DNA of 64,000 nucleotides from Candidatus Fermentithermobacillaceae bacterium (GTDB lineage Bacteria > Bacillota > Sulfobacillia > Fermentithermobacillales > Fermentithermobacillaceae): positions 1 through 64,000 of the forward strand of contig DUSI01000026.1 in assembly GCA_012842685.1 (NCBI GenBank). Reading direction: 5' to 3'. Below, piece by piece: positions 6,549 through 59,973 of the stretch. The notes below the pieces were generated by a model. That model worked only from the letters and a program-made list of their open reading frames with translations. It made no database searches and was not told where the DNA came from. How positions within the stretch are numbered: the first letter of the stretch is position 1; every line of letters begins with the position of its first letter. Made by a program: the position numbers and the translations under genes.

Positions 6549-7580
6549 CTATCGAGCGGGCTCCCGGGGGTTCCCAGCGAAATGCGCCTTTGCCAAGATC
6601 GCCGCTCCATGGGAAGCCGGAGTCGTGGAGTGGAAGAGCCTGGCTCCGGGCATGGCTTTCTTGAGTGCTTCCTCCAGGGCCGTAAGGTAGGACTTGCTCC
6701 TGAAACACCCGCCTCGGGCCCCCACGCCAGGTGCCTTGAAGTCCAGGCTCCTTGCTACGGCGCAGATGAGCTCCACGAGCATCCCCGCTTCGGCCCTCAG
6801 GATCTCCAGGGCTCCCTCCTCCGAGCGCTCGTCCGCCGCCCTGAATACCACCTGGGAGAGGGCCGCGATGGCGGTCCTGTCCATGGCCAGGGTGATGTGT
6901 ATGAGGTCCCGGGGCTTGGAGGCGCCTGCCGCGGCGAGGAGCTCCTCCACGAGGGGAGTGGGAGCTTCTCTTCCGTCAAACGCCCGCATCACCTTCCTGA
7001 GACCCCTGAGGGCGATGCTGTAGGCGCTTCCCTCGTCGCCGAGGAGGGCTCCGTACCCTCCTGCCGATACATACCTGCCGCTTCTTACGCCCAGGCAGTT
7101 GGAGCCTGTCCCGGCTATGACGACTATCCCGTCTCCTTCGCCGTGGGCGGCCGCCAAGGCCGAGTGGGTATCTTCGACCACGGTGAACGGACAGCTGCCG
7201 AAGAATGAGGACACCGCTTGGCGTATCCGCCTCGGGTTGTCGTCCCCGGCGCCTGCCAGGGCAAGGCAGGCCCCGGCGATATCGGTGAGCGTCGCGCCGC
7301 TCATCTTCAGGCTTTCGCTTACCGCCGTCCGTATGGAATCCCTCAGGACGGACTCGGAGACGTAGTTTATGTTGGCCGGGCCTCCCCGGCCCGTGCCGAG
7401 GATGTTCCCTGCGCCGTCCATCACGCACGCTTCAGTGCTGGTCCCGCCGCCGTCGACGCCCAGGAAGAGGCGGGGTTTTTCTTCGTCCGAAAGGGAGGGC
7501 CCCTCACCGGTACAGGAGGTAGGCTTTTCGCTGTCGCTCAAACTGAGACGCCTCCTCGCGCCATTTTTCGATGAGTCCAT
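6549..7580 (-). CDS. BadF/BadG/BcrA/BcrD-type ATPase, N-acetylglucosamine/N-acetylmuramate kinase-like (MurK-like)
   Basis: FLGVDGGGTSTEACV, VVIAGTGSNCLG, GGYGALLGDEGSAY; sits between namZ and murQ. Confidence 0.85.
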   Translation of the reverse strand: MDSSKNGARRRLSLSDSEKPTSCTGEGPSLSDEEKPRLFLGVDGGGTSTEACVMDGAGNILGTGRGGPANINYVSESVLRDSIRTAVSESLKMSGATLTDIAGACLALAGAGDDNPRRIRQAVSSFFGSCPFTVVEDTHSALAAAHGEGDGIVVIAGTGSNCLGVRSGRYVSAGGYGALLGDEGSAYSIALRGLRKVMRAFDGREAPTPLVEELLAAAGASKPRDLIHITLAMDRTAIAALSQVVFRAADERSEEGALEILRAEAGMLVELICAVARSLDFKAPGVGARGGCFRSKSYLTALEEALKKAMPGARLFHSTTPASHGAAILAKAHFAGNPREPAR

Positions 7581-8801: not shown

Positions 8802-9347
8802 TTACAAGATGTCCCGGCCTCTTACCGCTACCGCGACCTTCTCCGGCAGCGCCCTCATGACCACATAGGTGACTGCTGTGTTGAGCCCTGCGTGGGCTAC
8901 GTTGAACGGCACGATCACCGGCACTATCATCGAGAGGACCGTCTGCCTCGGGACGCCCAGGTAGATGGGCGTCACGATGAGGTTGAAGGGGACCATGAGG
9001 GCCACTCTCGTTAGAACGCCGGCCAGCATGGGTAGGTGGAGGCTATGGCTTTTCCTGGCCAGGAACCCTACCACCGCGGCCATGCCGCCCGACGCGATGA
9101 AGTGCATGAGGATGCCCCACGGCCCTCCTTCACCGGTGACCGCCGCGTAGAGCACCGAGTTGACCAGGGCGCATACCGCGCCCGCCACCGGTCCCATGGT
9201 GACCGCCGCGACGAGCGTGGGCACGTCTCCCGGCGCAAGTTTCAGGAAGGGCGCGGGCGGGTAGGAGAAAGCCAGGAGAAGCTCAAACACGAAAGACATT
9301 GCTGCTAGGATGGCAGTTAAGACTAGTGGAACGTACTTGCGGTTCAC
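8802..9347 (-). CDS. ribU: ECF transporter S component, riboflavin-type (RibU-like)
   Basis: Multi-TM small protein; GTG start with AGGGGG SD; directly downstream of an FMN riboswitch. Confidence 0.8.
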   Translation of the reverse strand: MNRKYVPLVLTAILAAMSFVFELLLAFSYPPAPFLKLAPGDVPTLVAAVTMGPVAGAVCALVNSVLYAAVTGEGGPWGILMHFIASGGMAAVVGFLARKSHSLHLPMLAGVLTRVALMVPFNLIVTPIYLGVPRQTVLSMIVPVIVPFNVAHAGLNTAVTYVVMRALPEKVAVAVRGRDIL

Positions 9348-9354
9348 TTAGATT

Positions 9355-9380
9355 CCCCCTCGCAGGATCTTCAGAGGGGG
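9355..9380 (-). promoter_or_regulatory. SD-sequestering hairpin between FMN aptamer and ribU
   Basis: CCCCCTC-12 nt-GAGGGGG, where GAGGGGG contains the ribU Shine-Dalgarno. Confidence 0.65.
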
Positions 9381-9412
9381 ACCCCCGGGGAGATCTTCCA
9401 TCGACACGGTCC

Positions 9413-9577
9413 GATCTTCTCTCATCCGGACTATACCGTCGGCCCCGGAATTCCACCGGGTCAGTCGCGCACGCGCCGTCAAGCGGCCTGCCGGTTGGCG
9501 CCTACGCGAGTCGCGGGCTTTGACCGCCGGTCAGGAATTGCGGCCGTATCCGGCCGCTCACCTTGCCCCGAAGATCC
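9413..9577 (-). ncRNA. FMN riboswitch (RFN element)
   Basis: Minus strand reads GATCTTCGGGGCAAGGTGAG...ATTCCTGACCGGCGGTCAAAGCCCGCGA...GACCCGGTGGAATTCCGGGGCCGACGGTATAGTCCGGATGAGAGAAGATC; P1 GATCTTC/GAAGATC. Confidence 0.96.
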
Positions 9578-9626
9578 TCTCCGGCTGTCTACTCTAGCAT
9601 TTGACATGGGGCCACGCAACGTCCAC

Positions 9627-10205
9627 CTAAGTAAAAAGGCCTCTCCACGGAGAGTTTTCGTCTTCGTCCAGCTTCCTGGACTGCTGAAACACATCATCCC
9701 TGATGAGGGGATCCCTCGTGAGGATTCTCCACGCTTTGAGGACGTTCTCGACAAACTCGCTCCTGAGGGGATGCCGGTCCGGTCCCGTCACCAGTGGGCA
9801 GATGAGGCTTCCCGCCAGCGTATCCAGCCTGACCGCCAGCTCACCTTCCGGGCTAAGGTACGGCATGAGGGGAAAAGTGCGGCACTGGATTGGCCTCTTT
9901 TCCCTGGGACAAGTCCCCCGGCACATGACGAACGCCACGAGGCCTTTCCACGAGCCGGGGAAATCGTGATGCCTGGCGAGCTTGTAGCTCCACCTGAGCC
10001 AGGGCTCTCGCCCCGTGAACATCGATTCCTCTCCTGGGAGGAGGTACATGCCTACGCCCGGCTCGTACTCCTGGCAGCACTTCCGCCCGCAGAGCTCACC
10101 GCAGTCCGACTCCAAAGGGGGCACGTCCAGAAGCCGGTAGACTTCCTCGAAGTCTTCCTTGGAGAGGACGGACCTCACGAGCCGTTTCCGGATATAACCG
10201 AGCAC
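9627..10205 (-). CDS. Cys-rich YkgJ-like putative metal-binding protein
   Basis: CGELCGRKCCQEY, CRGTCPREKRPIQCRTFPLMPY cysteine pattern. Confidence 0.6.
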   Translation of the reverse strand: MLGYIRKRLVRSVLSKEDFEEVYRLLDVPPLESDCGELCGRKCCQEYEPGVGMYLLPGEESMFTGREPWLRWSYKLARHHDFPGSWKGLVAFVMCRGTCPREKRPIQCRTFPLMPYLSPEGELAVRLDTLAGSLICPLVTGPDRHPLRSEFVENVLKAWRILTRDPLIRDDVFQQSRKLDEDENSPWRGLFT

Positions 10206-10320
10206 CAGATCACTTCCGTTCAGGATCTTCTCTTTTCAGGATCTACGAAATGCTAAAGGATTCGTGCCCTCCCATAAGTAATACCTTTGAGGTTACTGCC
10301 GCAAGGGGAGGATTGTCCCA

Positions 10321-34850: not shown

Positions 34851-35021
34851 GTCGCAGGATCGTCAAAGAGCCTCGGCTGGCGACGATGGACGAAAAATAG
34901 ACGAGCGAGATAGTCTTCCAGACCTCGGCCGTTTCGACCCCGGCCGTTAGGCCCCGGCAGTTAGACCCCGGTTACCGCACGCAGCTACGTTGCCGCGGCG
35001 GTGGCCGGTTGTCTTTTGTAC

Positions 35022-35643
35022 TGGCCGAAAGGATCCGCCAGTCTTACCCATAGCCGGAGCAAACCGACCGGTCCCCTTGGATGGGCCGAAAAAACCGGAC
35101 GAGCTTTGGACGTAGACCGGCGACATCCTCTGGTCGTGCCGGATACGCCCGTCAAACCGGACGATACTTGGAAACATGCCGGTGAGACCGGCCTCTGACT
35201 ACGGATCGGTCGGTGAAACCAGTCATCGATCGTGGATAGTCCGACGAAACCGACTATCGACTTGCGGATCAGCTGATGAGACCGGCCGATGATCGTGGAT
35301 AGGTCGACGAAAGCAGTCACTGATCCCGGATCGGTCGGTGAAACCGGCCAATGGTTGCTGATAACACGGTGAGATCGGCCAATGATCGGGGATGGATCGG
35401 TGCAATCCGCCAATGACTGCAGACAAGTCGACGAAACCCGCCGGGGTGTGAGAATGTGTTCGGTGAAATCGACCGATATCCAAGGATGAGCCGGCGAGAT
35501 CAGCCGATGTGCAGGAATCCGACGGCAAAACCGATTCTAGAATCCGGATCGTCAGATCAAACCGGTCGGTGGTCTTTAGCAGGACGACGAAACCGAAGGA
35601 TCCTCCTGGATGGGTCGATAGATGGGTCGACCGGACCTGCTCG
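35022..35643. repeat. Degenerate 31-nt tandem array A (about 20 units)
   Basis: Units start at 35022, 35053, 35084, 35115, 35146, 35177, 35208, 35239, 35271, 35302, 35333, 35364, 35395, 35426, 35458, 35489, 35520, 35551, 35582, 35613; consensus approx GGTCGGYGAAACCGGCCRATGATCNNGGATA. Confidence 0.9.
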
Positions 35644-37426: not shown

Positions 37427-37583
37427 GAGCCTTCAGCCCCTGTGCTACGTAGTAGGATTTCTTGACTTCATCATTCTCCCCAGGCGCCGGTAGGCAAGTC
37501 AAGTTGGGTGGACCTAGCGCTAACAAGCAACAGGAAAAAGGGCTATGCGAAAAGGTCCGCGGAGAAAGCGGGGTGGAAGAGGC

Positions 37584-37939
37584 CTGCCGAATGGGGCTAG
37601 AGACCGGGGCCGGCAATCGTAGCAGCCAGCAAGCAGGGCTAGAAACCCGGGCTGGCAACCACAGCCAGGAAGCAGGGCTGGCGACCAGGCCGGTGACTAG
37701 AGCCGGCAAGCAGGGCTGGCGACAAGGACCAGAGACCAGGGCCGGCAACCAGGGACAGCAAGCAGGGGGCCGGCAAGAAGGGCCGGCAAACAGGGCCAGC
37801 GGATAGGGGTAATGAACAGCGGTACTGAACAGGGCACCGAACAGGGCTACCGGACAGGGTTGACAGACAGAGTTAACCGAAAGAGGCTGGCAAACAGGGG
37901 CTGCACACAAGGATTACCAAATGTGGATACGCCACAGGG
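37584..37939. repeat. Degenerate ~13-nt tandem array C
   Basis: More than 20 units of 12-14 nt, consensus CYGGCAANCAGGG, in a divergent intergenic region. Confidence 0.8.
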
Positions 37940-38001
37940 AACAAGTTCCTGTTTCCCCCGTCAAAACCGACTGGCGCACCAAGGATAATCGACTCTGAGG
38001 A

Positions 38002-55863: not shown

Positions 55864-56703
55864 ATGGGGGTGGTTTGTCTGAAGATAGGCGATCTGATCG
55901 GCCGCGGCTACCAGTGTGAGGTGTTTGCCCTGGGAGACGACAAAGTATTGAAGGTCTTCAAGCCCGGGGCGGACCGGTCCTGGATCGAAAGAGAGTTCCA
56001 GGTTACCTGCCTTCTTCATGGAGCCGGACTGCCCGTACCTGCCGCGTTCGACATCGTGGAGGTAGATGGTAGGACCGGGATTGTGTACGAGCGGATCCAC
56101 GGGCCTCTTATCAGCGAGGCGGTCCTGGCTAAACCGGGGGAGATAAGGGCTCTTGCCCGCGGGATGGCCGAACTCCACGCAGCCATCCATTCGGTAAGCC
56201 TGAAGGATCTGCCGTCGCAGCGTGAACGGTTCATAAGGCGAATCAAGGGCCTAGGGCAGCTCACGGCTGGGGAAAAGGAAGATGTCTTGCTTATCCTCGA
56301 TAGGCTACCCGACGGCGACCGCGTGTGTCACGGCGACCTGAACCCCAACAATGTGATCGTATCTCCAAAGGGTATGGTGGCAATTGACTGGGACAACGGG
56401 TGCAGGGGAAACCCAATGGCCGACGTCGCGCGTACGGTCTTGCTCCTGGACAACGCCCCCTGTCATGTTCTGGATCCTCTAGAGAGGAAGAATGTTTGCG
56501 CGCTCGCCAGGCGCTTCAGAGACGAGTATCTCGAGGTGTACTTCGAAACCACTGGGGAAACAGCTGGTCGGTCGGAGTCTCTCACCAGTATTCTTGCGCA
56601 GTGGATGATACCAGTCGCAGCTGCCCGGCTGGATGAGAACATAGAGCCGGAGCAGGCAGCTCTGCTGGAAACCGTACGCAAGGGCGTCGCCCGGCAAGCA
56701 TGA
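55864..56703 (+). CDS. aminoglycoside phosphotransferase/APH-fold kinase
   Basis: VCHGDLNPNNVIVSPKGMVAIDWDNGCRGNPMADVART. Confidence 0.88.
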   Translation: MGVVCLKIGDLIGRGYQCEVFALGDDKVLKVFKPGADRSWIEREFQVTCLLHGAGLPVPAAFDIVEVDGRTGIVYERIHGPLISEAVLAKPGEIRALARGMAELHAAIHSVSLKDLPSQRERFIRRIKGLGQLTAGEKEDVLLILDRLPDGDRVCHGDLNPNNVIVSPKGMVAIDWDNGCRGNPMADVARTVLLLDNAPCHVLDPLERKNVCALARRFRDEYLEVYFETTGETAGRSESLTSILAQWMIPVAAARLDENIEPEQAALLETVRKGVARQA

Positions 56704-56759
56704 GCGACACTCGTATTGTTGTACCTTCATGGGTAAACTCCTAATCATCCGCGGTGACG

Positions 56760-57286
56760 GGCGGAAGAAACCTGATGGTCCCGGCATATCGGCTGAAAAG
56801 AAGGGATCGTAGGGAAACATCGGCGGAAAGGACCGGATGGTCTGCGGAGATCCGGGGGAGAAACCGACCGACCCAGGAACACCGGCCGAAAAGACGGGAT
56901 AGTTCGGGAAGATCGGTGGAAGAGGTCCGACGGTGCGGCATGACAGGTGGAGGAGTTCAGATGGTCTGTGATAATCGGTAGAAGAAATCGGATGGTGCGA
57001 TGTGAGCGGTGGAAGAGTTCGGACGGTTTGTGCTGAATGGTGGAAGAAATCCGATGATGTGCCAGGATGGGTGGAACAGACCGGATGATGTGTGATGACC
57101 GGCAGAAGAAATCGGATAGTGCAGGGTAGATGGCGGAAGAACTCGGATGGTCCACGGTGACCAGTGGAAGAATCCGGAGAGTCAGCGGTGACTGGCGGAA
57201 GAACTGCGATGGTCCGCGGTGACCGGCGGAGATGGTCCGACCGTCGGGAAAGACCGGCGGACAGAATCGGCCGGTCCCTGAGGCGT
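56760..57286. repeat. Degenerate 31-nt tandem array B (17 units in unbroken register)
   Basis: Units begin every 31 nt from 56760 to 57256; consensus approx GGYGGAAGAAATCGGATGGTSYGSGGTGAYC. Confidence 0.92.
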
Positions 57287-57560
57287 GGGTGGAAGATACC
57301 AGACGATCGTCTTGAGGGTCAGAAAGCCCCGATGGCCCGAAGGTCCAACCGGCCAGGAAGTCCCATGATCAGAAGAGCCAGTGGCCAGGCATACCGGGGT
57401 GTGCCTGGGCTCCTCATCCTGAAGGCCCTGCAACTTGCCGAAGATGTGCTGGTTTACCGCGCAGCCCCTCCCTTGACAACCCTGTGGGTAACGGAGTTCA
57501 ATGGAGTTAAACAACCGGTTAGTCATACATGGCGGCATCCCGGCACCAGGAGTGTTGGAC

Positions 57561-58268
57561 ATGCCTTTTGCGAAAGACTCTACGGAAGAAACCAAGAAGA
57601 GGATCATCGAAGTCGTCCGGCGCCACTTTTCCGAGAAGGGTTTTGACGCGGCCCGGGTCGATGAGATCGCCAAAGATGCCGGGGTCAACAAAGCCCTCAT
57701 CTACTACTACTTTGAGAGCAAAGAAGCCATATTGGACCACCTCATCCAGGAGCTTTTTGACGACGTTTCAGCGCTTGCGCTTGAGTTTGTCGAGGAGCAC
57801 GTGGTCAGTATGATAAGCCAAGGCCGCCTGGACATCGAGAGCGACCGGTGGAGGTTTGCTTCCGAAGATGATGCCATGGACTTCTACAGGGCGTGCCTGC
57901 GGTACGTGGAGAAGATCGTCGATTTTTCCCTGTCAAACCGGGGCGTCGTGCGGATTGCGATATTCGAGTCTCTCAAGCACGGAAAACACAAGAACACGCT
58001 CTTTCAGCTCCTGGACCGTCTCTACAATAAGAACGAGAGCCCGCTATACCGGACGATCTGGAGCGCCGACCACGACTTCGACTTCACGCCCGAAGCCGTC
58101 GTATTCAGGTTCTTCTTTGGGTTTTTCCCGGTATTCAACTTGGCCGCCCACTTTGACGCCTATGTCCAGGCAACCGGACTTAGTGAGAGCGAAGTAAGGG
58201 ATTCCTTCATCCGGGGATATCAGAAGGTGGTGTCCGTTTACTTCCGGGGGAAGGAAATCGTATTGTAG
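57561..58268 (+). CDS. TetR family transcriptional regulator
   Basis: KKRIIEVVRRHFSEKGFDAARVDEIAKDAGVNKALIYYYFESKEAILDHLI. Confidence 0.94.
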   Translation: MPFAKDSTEETKKRIIEVVRRHFSEKGFDAARVDEIAKDAGVNKALIYYYFESKEAILDHLIQELFDDVSALALEFVEEHVVSMISQGRLDIESDRWRFASEDDAMDFYRACLRYVEKIVDFSLSNRGVVRIAIFESLKHGKHKNTLFQLLDRLYNKNESPLYRTIWSADHDFDFTPEAVVFRFFFGFFPVFNLAAHFDAYVQATGLSESEVRDSFIRGYQKVVSVYFRGKEIVL

Positions 58269-58587: not shown

Positions 58588-59973
58588 GTGAGGAGAGCTC
58601 GTAATGCGACGTTGGAGTTATTGTTTCGCTATCTGTCAGACAAGCCGATGTCGAAGCTGCCCGCCATGCTCTCTCTGGCGCAGCAGCTGGACAGGGGTCA
58701 TAACTACACGGAACAGATAAAGGGCATAAAGGAGCTGCTGTCTGATCCTCAGGGAGTGTGGTACAGGTTCACAAAGAACCTGTTGGAGGAAGTAAACCCC
58801 AGGTGCTTGAGAAGCATCGTGGAGTGCCTCTTGTTCAACGCGACGCTCGACGGGAGCGCAACGCGTAAAGAGGTTGAGGAAAAGTATAACTGCAACGTAC
58901 CCTGGGCCATCTTGATGGACCCAACGAGCGCCTGCAACCTAAACTGCACCGGCTGCTGGGCGGCCCAGTACGGACAAAAGAACAGCCTCTCATTCGATAC
59001 ACTTGATTCAATAATCCGGCAGGGTAAAGAGCTCGGGATCCACTTCTACCTCTACTCGGGTGGAGAACCGTTGGTTCGCAAAGATGACCTAATCCGCCTC
59101 GCCGAGAAGCACGATGACTGCTATTTCCTGGCGTTCACCAACGGCACGCTGGTAGACGACAAGTTCTGCGAAGACCTCGCTCGCGTGGGCAACGTGACCC
59201 TTGCCTTCTCCATCGAGGGGAACGAAGAGGCCACCGACATGCGCAGGGGCAAGGGCACCTACCGCAGAGTGGTCGAGGCGATGGAGCGGATGCGCGCCCA
59301 CAACCTCTTCTTCGGTTACTCCACCTGCTACCACAGGTACAACACGGAGAGCGTGGGTTCGGATGAGTTCGTGGACGACATGATAGCCAGAGGATGCCGG
59401 TTTGCCTGGAACTTCACGTACATCCCCGTGGGTAAAGACGCAGCCCTGGACCTTATAGCCACTCCCGAGCAGCGAGCGTGGATGTACCACCGCATCCGCG
59501 AGATCCGGCGGACCAAGCCGATCCTCGCCCTGGATTTCTGGAACGACGGCGAGTATACCTCCGGATGTATCGCAGGCGGGCGCTGCTACCTGCATATCAA
59601 CGCGGCTGGAGACGTTGAGCCGTGCGCTTTTATCCACTACTCAAACGTCAACATCCACGATGTAACGCTACTTGAGGCTCTCCAGGCGCCCCTCTTCATG
59701 CAGTACAGGAAGCGGCAGCCCTTCAACCAGAACCACCTGAGGCCTTGCCCGCTCCTTGACAATCCGGATGAGCTCGTTGCCATGGTCAGAGAATCGGGAG
59801 CCAGGTCCACGGAGATGATGGCGCCCGAAGACGTGGAAGTCCTCTGCAGCAAGACTCGTCCGGCGGCCGAGAAGTGGGCAGTCAAGGCCGACGAACTGTG
59901 GGCGAAGGCCAAGGCCGCTTCGGCACGCGGTCTGAGAGAAGAATCCGCTGCAGCTATTGCGGGGGAGCGGTAG
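58588..59973 (+). CDS. radical SAM protein with SPASM-like C-terminal cysteines
   Basis: DPTSACNLNCTGCWAAQYG (CxxxCxxC), YLYSGGEPLVRKDDL, CIAGGRCYLHINAAGDVEPCAFIHYSNVN. Confidence 0.9.
   Translation: MRRARNATLELLFRYLSDKPMSKLPAMLSLAQQLDRGHNYTEQIKGIKELLSDPQGVWYRFTKNLLEEVNPRCLRSIVECLLFNATLDGSATRKEVEEKYNCNVPWAILMDPTSACNLNCTGCWAAQYGQKNSLSFDTLDSIIRQGKELGIHFYLYSGGEPLVRKDDLIRLAEKHDDCYFLAFTNGTLVDDKFCEDLARVGNVTLAFSIEGNEEATDMRRGKGTYRRVVEAMERMRAHNLFFGYSTCYHRYNTESVGSDEFVDDMIARGCRFAWNFTYIPVGKDAALDLIATPEQRAWMYHRIREIRRTKPILALDFWNDGEYTSGCIAGGRCYLHINAAGDVEPCAFIHYSNVNIHDVTLLEALQAPLFMQYRKRQPFNQNHLRPCPLLDNPDELVAMVRESGARSTEMMAPEDVEVLCSKTRPAAEKWAVKADELWAKAKAASARGLREESAAAIAGER

Follow-up and report, generated by a model that had tools for sequence, protein, structure and literature searches.

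Within the 64,000-nucleotide window analysed here, which stems from a Candidatus Fermentithermobacillaceae bacterium (genome G000), the space upstream of a TetR-family regulator gene is occupied by a tandem array whose units vary widely in sequence and keep a constant length. This raises the question of what the array is and what holds its spacing. The array, designated B, and its neighbours are, in window coordinates:

55864-56703, plus strand: gene for an APH-fold phosphotransferase, adjoining array B on the left (PF01636, E=1.1e-21)
56747-57311, plus strand: array B, 17 full 31-bp units (56760-57286), preceded by a partial unit and followed by an 18th
57501-58268, plus strand: TetR-family regulator gene, adjoining array B on the right (PF00440, E=9.9e-16)
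58588-59973, plus strand: radical SAM/SPASM gene, downstream of the TetR gene (PF04055, E=7.9e-21)

An initial sequence-only reading had described 17 units in unbroken 31-nt register and had called for a formal period analysis. Framing from position 56760 places all 17 units in the same 31-nt frame with zero indels; the partial unit starts at 56747, and the 18th, preceded by a one-base insertion, reaches 57311. Self-identity is 0.60, 0.62 and 0.59 at lags 31, 62 and 93, as compared with at most 0.37 for the best of any lag in 500 shuffles (0.37 also for the runner-up real lag), so that the periodicity holds. The combination of invariant length and high substitution was likewise correctly seen, since the units are only ca. 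60% alike, which is also why TRF picks up the array in pieces only. Columns 2 and 5 are invariant among the 17 units and columns 6, 15 and 20 are conserved at 90% or more. This fixed unit length despite heavy substitution is an important clue. A protein-coding repeat was rejected: 31 is not divisible by 3, and a 136-aa ORF on the minus strand over array B has no Pfam match. An assembly artefact is unlikely because independent assemblies carry the same repeat family at the same gene junctions (see below).

Array B belongs to a larger set. A lag scan of the window revealed a second array with a period of 31:

35020-35622, plus strand: array A, ca. 20-21 units interrupted by 3 small indels; the genes on either side are MetG-like and GNAT-like (both names given from reading the sequence rather than from a family search)

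The profile search for further copies that the same reading had proposed was performed with a model of array B (R1, built from its sequence only) and located arrays on five more contigs of G000 (C48, C26, C7, C65 and C34). The genome thus has at least seven arrays of one unit family, in which ca. 156 units were delimited with a cyclic 31-column profile HMM; 21 indel events occur across these units and the 31-bp register is kept in all arrays. This kinship is not an artefact of training on the genome's own data, since R3, a model whose training set consisted solely of arrays from two sister genomes, recovers all seven, with array B matched at 57039-57122 (E=1.1e-7). Of the 26 places in the window that match a 15-base spaced core pattern, every one falls within array A or B; 0.05 matches would be expected. 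Array B has both the period and the core (G5, A11, C13, T20, A29) that define the family, and it is best explained as belonging to a family of non-coding tandem arrays that is specific to the genus. Literature searches returned no description of a 31-bp array family.

Other tandem repeats were observed nearby. The window contains a third degenerate array at 37531-37965, of period 13 (also 26, 28 and 38) and with a unit of ca. GCCGGCAACCAGG, in a gap that is ca. 390 bp shorter in the sister genome G002. On contig C34 (L041, ca. 6896-7066), some 2 kb away from the array of 31-bp units, a period-34 repeat carries palindromic GGTACC and CCGGCGATRCCGG elements. Such arrays of different period hint at a general repeat-making tendency in this lineage.

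Comparison with sister genomes indicates that the arrays are mostly kept in place. In G002, a sister species of 72-84% nucleotide identity, an array occurs at the same gene junction for all seven arrays of G000 (7/7). G003 has arrays at the junctions of three (A, C7 and C34), and G001 keeps a 3-unit version at that of array A (L191); the models detected no array B in G003. Around polA and tldD, G001 and G000 have no second neighbour gene in common, so that these regions are uninformative about array loss. Array A (orthologs L144 in G002 and L149 in G003) comprises 21, 8, 12 and 3 units across the own and sister genomes and array B 19 versus 11 units between related genomes, a change in copy number of the kind seen in minisatellites; some of the other arrays are cut by contig ends. 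Overall, arrays range from 3 to 29 units. Identity is barely higher between orthologous arrays (0.488) than between non-orthologous ones (0.478); individual units are thus shorter-lived than motif, period and place.

Outside the genus, searches of 154 genomes of the class with model R2 and of 398 genomes of the phylum with R3, both under a strict filter, returned nothing comparable, and the other genera of the family have no detectable arrays. Weak class-level matches in G017, G028 and G037 were single matches and were rejected. So was that in G040, a distant class member: the match is a near-perfect 30-nt tandem repeat (L131, contig C11; lag-30 identity 0.92), with weak likeness to the 31-bp family and unconvincing kinship. 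A phage or plasmid origin was set aside as well, with no match in phages and plasmids (blastn) or in viral contigs (exact spaced core pattern).

Alignment of 256 units from 19 arrays gives the consensus GGYSGMYVARAYCSGMYGRTCSBYKVSGAYM, the units being only ca. 0.5 identical. Six core columns are conserved at 80-92% (T20 and A29 at 91-92%, C13 at 90%, G5 at 88%, A11 at 85% and A9 at 81%) and the remaining ones are near saturation; within arrays, mean pair identity is 0.80 for core columns and 0.49 for the others. The column conservation profile agrees across independent arrays (mean rho 0.32), exceeding both column permutation (maximum 0.065) and a simple neutral simulation that started from a single ancestral unit and allowed base-specific mutability (rho of 0.22 or less). 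The spread of column means is also larger than in that simulation (0.140 versus at most 0.079). Column conservation could partly reflect shared ancestry rather than selection, and the evidence for constraint on this genus-level family is good but not conclusive.

The unit is also twofold symmetric, with dyads at positions 9 and 24.5 (an equivalent reflection). For the profile of G000, reflection about position 9 gives a mean complementary column correlation of 0.725, the maximum in 2000 column shuffles being 0.69; with all species the value is 0.59 and that of the next best centre 0.30. GAT/ATC half-sites occupy positions 5-7, 11-13, 19-21 and 28-30. A division of the unit into four modules of 7.75 bp was considered and dropped, rotation self-correlation (best lags 10 and 13) being unsupportive. 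Watson-Crick covariation is at chance level across dyad 9 (z 0.5) and below expectation across dyad 24.5 (z -3.6). This symmetry without compensatory change fits independent contacts by a protein dimer and not an RNA stem.

The same data bear on whether the arrays act as RNA, either as structured or repeat-encoded transcripts or as a CRISPR-like array. Array C34 does fold better than shuffles, although its z of -3.8 is based on 20 shuffles only and symmetry alone could give it. For array B, folding of either strand is comparable to that of shuffles (z -0.76 and -0.30) and Rfam has no match at the array; pairing across the dyads of the unit lacks the compensatory changes of structured RNAs. RNA hairpins were rejected because of this absent covariation and the lack of any stability excess for array B. 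The units abut without spacers and are ca. 60% alike, unlike the repeat-spacer layout of a CRISPR. An RNA role is accordingly considered highly unlikely.

Individual arrays come and go. In G003, contig C93 carries an array of homogeneous units (L190, 6899 to ca. 7243) with a lag-31 identity of 0.88, which shows a young array and ordinary tandem expansion; its junction is array-free in both G000 and G001. It is directly followed by a stretch of 23-nt period (L190:7263-7380) whose GGATAACCGGTGGA letters resemble those of the array, which would fit the expansion of a shortened unit. The C109-type array is also absent from G000. Another array of G003 (L189:6534-6903) is flanked by stretches that match 8833-9601 and 9628-10220 of the window, leaving in G000 a gap of 26 bp between the aligned blocks:

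9602-9627, no strand: short array-free junction, where G003 has a 12-unit 31-bp array

The sole Rfam match, an FMN riboswitch (RF00050, 92.8 bits; window 9410-9579, minus strand), adjoins this junction with the G003 array and has no array beside it in G000. Neither target-site duplications nor inverted termini were seen at the array-free junctions, where the alignment is poor. Since junctions without an array occur (B in G003, C109-type and C93-type), single arrays are dispensable. Together with the 62-bp higher-order period found in several arrays of G000, the young array and the array-free junctions indicate that arrays are born, grow, shrink and vanish, and that the remaining ones keep core and spacing.

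The genes around the arrays were then considered. Array B was rightly placed between APH-like and TetR genes, as the Pfam matches above confirm, and in G002 the ortholog of the APH-fold gene also adjoins the B array. A special tie to the TetR and radical SAM genes is not supported: the six other arrays of G000 adjoin unrelated genes in both orientations (MetG-like, Mrp/TldD, PolA, MurI, MutL-like and glycosyltransferase), and G002 has extra genes beside the array at some junctions, including between the B array and TetR. Among these neighbours, membrane-protein-like genes related to one another were noted beside array B in G002 (L014:8140-10197) and near the C48 array of G000 (L037:11341-14154); kinship was seen between the G003 copy and that of C48, and Pfam matches are lacking for two of the G002 proteins. 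A second TldD/PmbA pair (L182, contig C41 of G000) is 87% identical to the pair beside array C26 and lacks an array within 1 kb upstream.

A role as operator or enhancer of the adjacent gene, which for array B would mean a TetR protein regulating its own gene, has in its favour that TetR proteins bind palindromes and that the TetR gene begins 190 bp downstream of the array (its true start may lie further in, at ca. 57564). The remaining arrays have no TetR gene next door, however, and they lie on either side of genes and also between convergent ones, with no common theme in neighbours or orientation; in G002, moreover, array and TetR gene are separated. This reading is very improbable. Because neighbours and orientation share no theme, a chromosome-level rather than a gene-level role is favoured; neither GC skew nor gene strand shows a consistent relation to the arrays.

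We propose, with a probability of about one in two, that the arrays are gapless rows of binding sites for a putative dimeric, probably chromosome-organising, DNA-binding protein; protein binding, regular assembly and the chromosome-organising role are all inferred. As 31 bp corresponds to ca. three helical turns, successive units would present the same helix face. The putative dimer would bind the twofold-symmetric GAT/ATC half-sites of each unit, and at seven to ten sites on the chromosome the bound dimers would line up in a regular row or filament, the arrays then acting as an architectural or centromere-like anchor and not as the operator of a neighbouring gene. A more specific version, that mostly syntenic arrays form a genus-specific anchor on which a filament of one putative dimer per unit organises or segregates the chromosome, is put forward only tentatively.

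The main rival to rows of binding sites is satellite-like DNA without host function, generated by slippage or unequal exchange, occasionally spread to new intergenic places and then decaying, with a register that persists since indels are rarer than substitutions. The young L190 array, the copy numbers of 3 to 29, the array-free junctions, the 62-bp pattern typical of a tandem duplication of two units and the nearby arrays with periods of 13, 23 and 34 all agree with it. It accounts for these dynamics but not for the twofold-symmetric core; decay poorly explains six columns at 80-92% in all arrays with the rest near saturation, and blastn of array B against its own genome revealed no block copies between arrays. 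We regard it as possible, though rather unlikely. A selfish repeat maintained by a dedicated enzyme, in the way RAYT transposases maintain REP sequences, would make the core a recognition site for copying or expanding units and would join a conserved symmetric core to ongoing gain, loss and expansion of arrays. Against it, the array-free junctions, poorly aligned as they are, display neither of the insertion marks sought, and the ca. eight arrays per genome are far below REP numbers, which makes it improbable.

Several known systems resemble parts of this picture. Bacterial minisatellites and VNTRs are intergenic tandem repeats of variable copy number, whereas the 31-bp units are highly diverged, have a conserved symmetric core and keep their places across species. 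Iterons and Lrp-type phased operator clusters are helically phased repeated sites bound by dimers, as proposed for the 31-bp arrays, but with few sites at a single origin or promoter. Archaeal-type histones occupy 30 bp per dimer; wrapping of this kind was rejected given the absence of the histone fold PF00808 from 14 genomes of the family, control genomes being positive. REPs and BIMEs are also intergenic palindromic units in regularly spaced clusters with reported host-protein binding (PMC2817692), but BIME units alternate in orientation and REPs exceed 100 per genome, whereas the 31-bp arrays are few, long, head-to-tail and strictly of 31 bp; they share the dyad symmetry, with arms that lack covariation. 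The nearest functional analogue in the literature consulted, with no kinship claimed, would be parS of plasmid pSM19035, bound by the RHH-type protein Omega: its repeats, in direct and inverted orientation, are bound cooperatively and at least 4 contiguous ones are needed for full activity (PMC9499535). Both comprise contiguous short ATC-containing repeats in several arrays per replicon, but the parS units are of 7 bp, 7-10 per site, and plasmid-borne beside partition genes (PMC9499535), whereas the 31-bp arrays have 3-29 units, are chromosomal and lie beside unrelated genes, and their cognate protein is putative. The Mrp gene next to array C26 falls in the NUBPL/Mrp branch (PF10609) and was not counted as evidence of ParABS.

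If the proposed reading is true, this little-studied lineage of thermophiles would possess a new family of bacterial chromosomal arrays that are long, phased and bound by protein. The genomes offer a natural experiment in which place and spacing are kept, letters are turned over and new arrays are born. Even as satellite DNA, such arrays would be unusual in a bacterium of 1.9 Mb.
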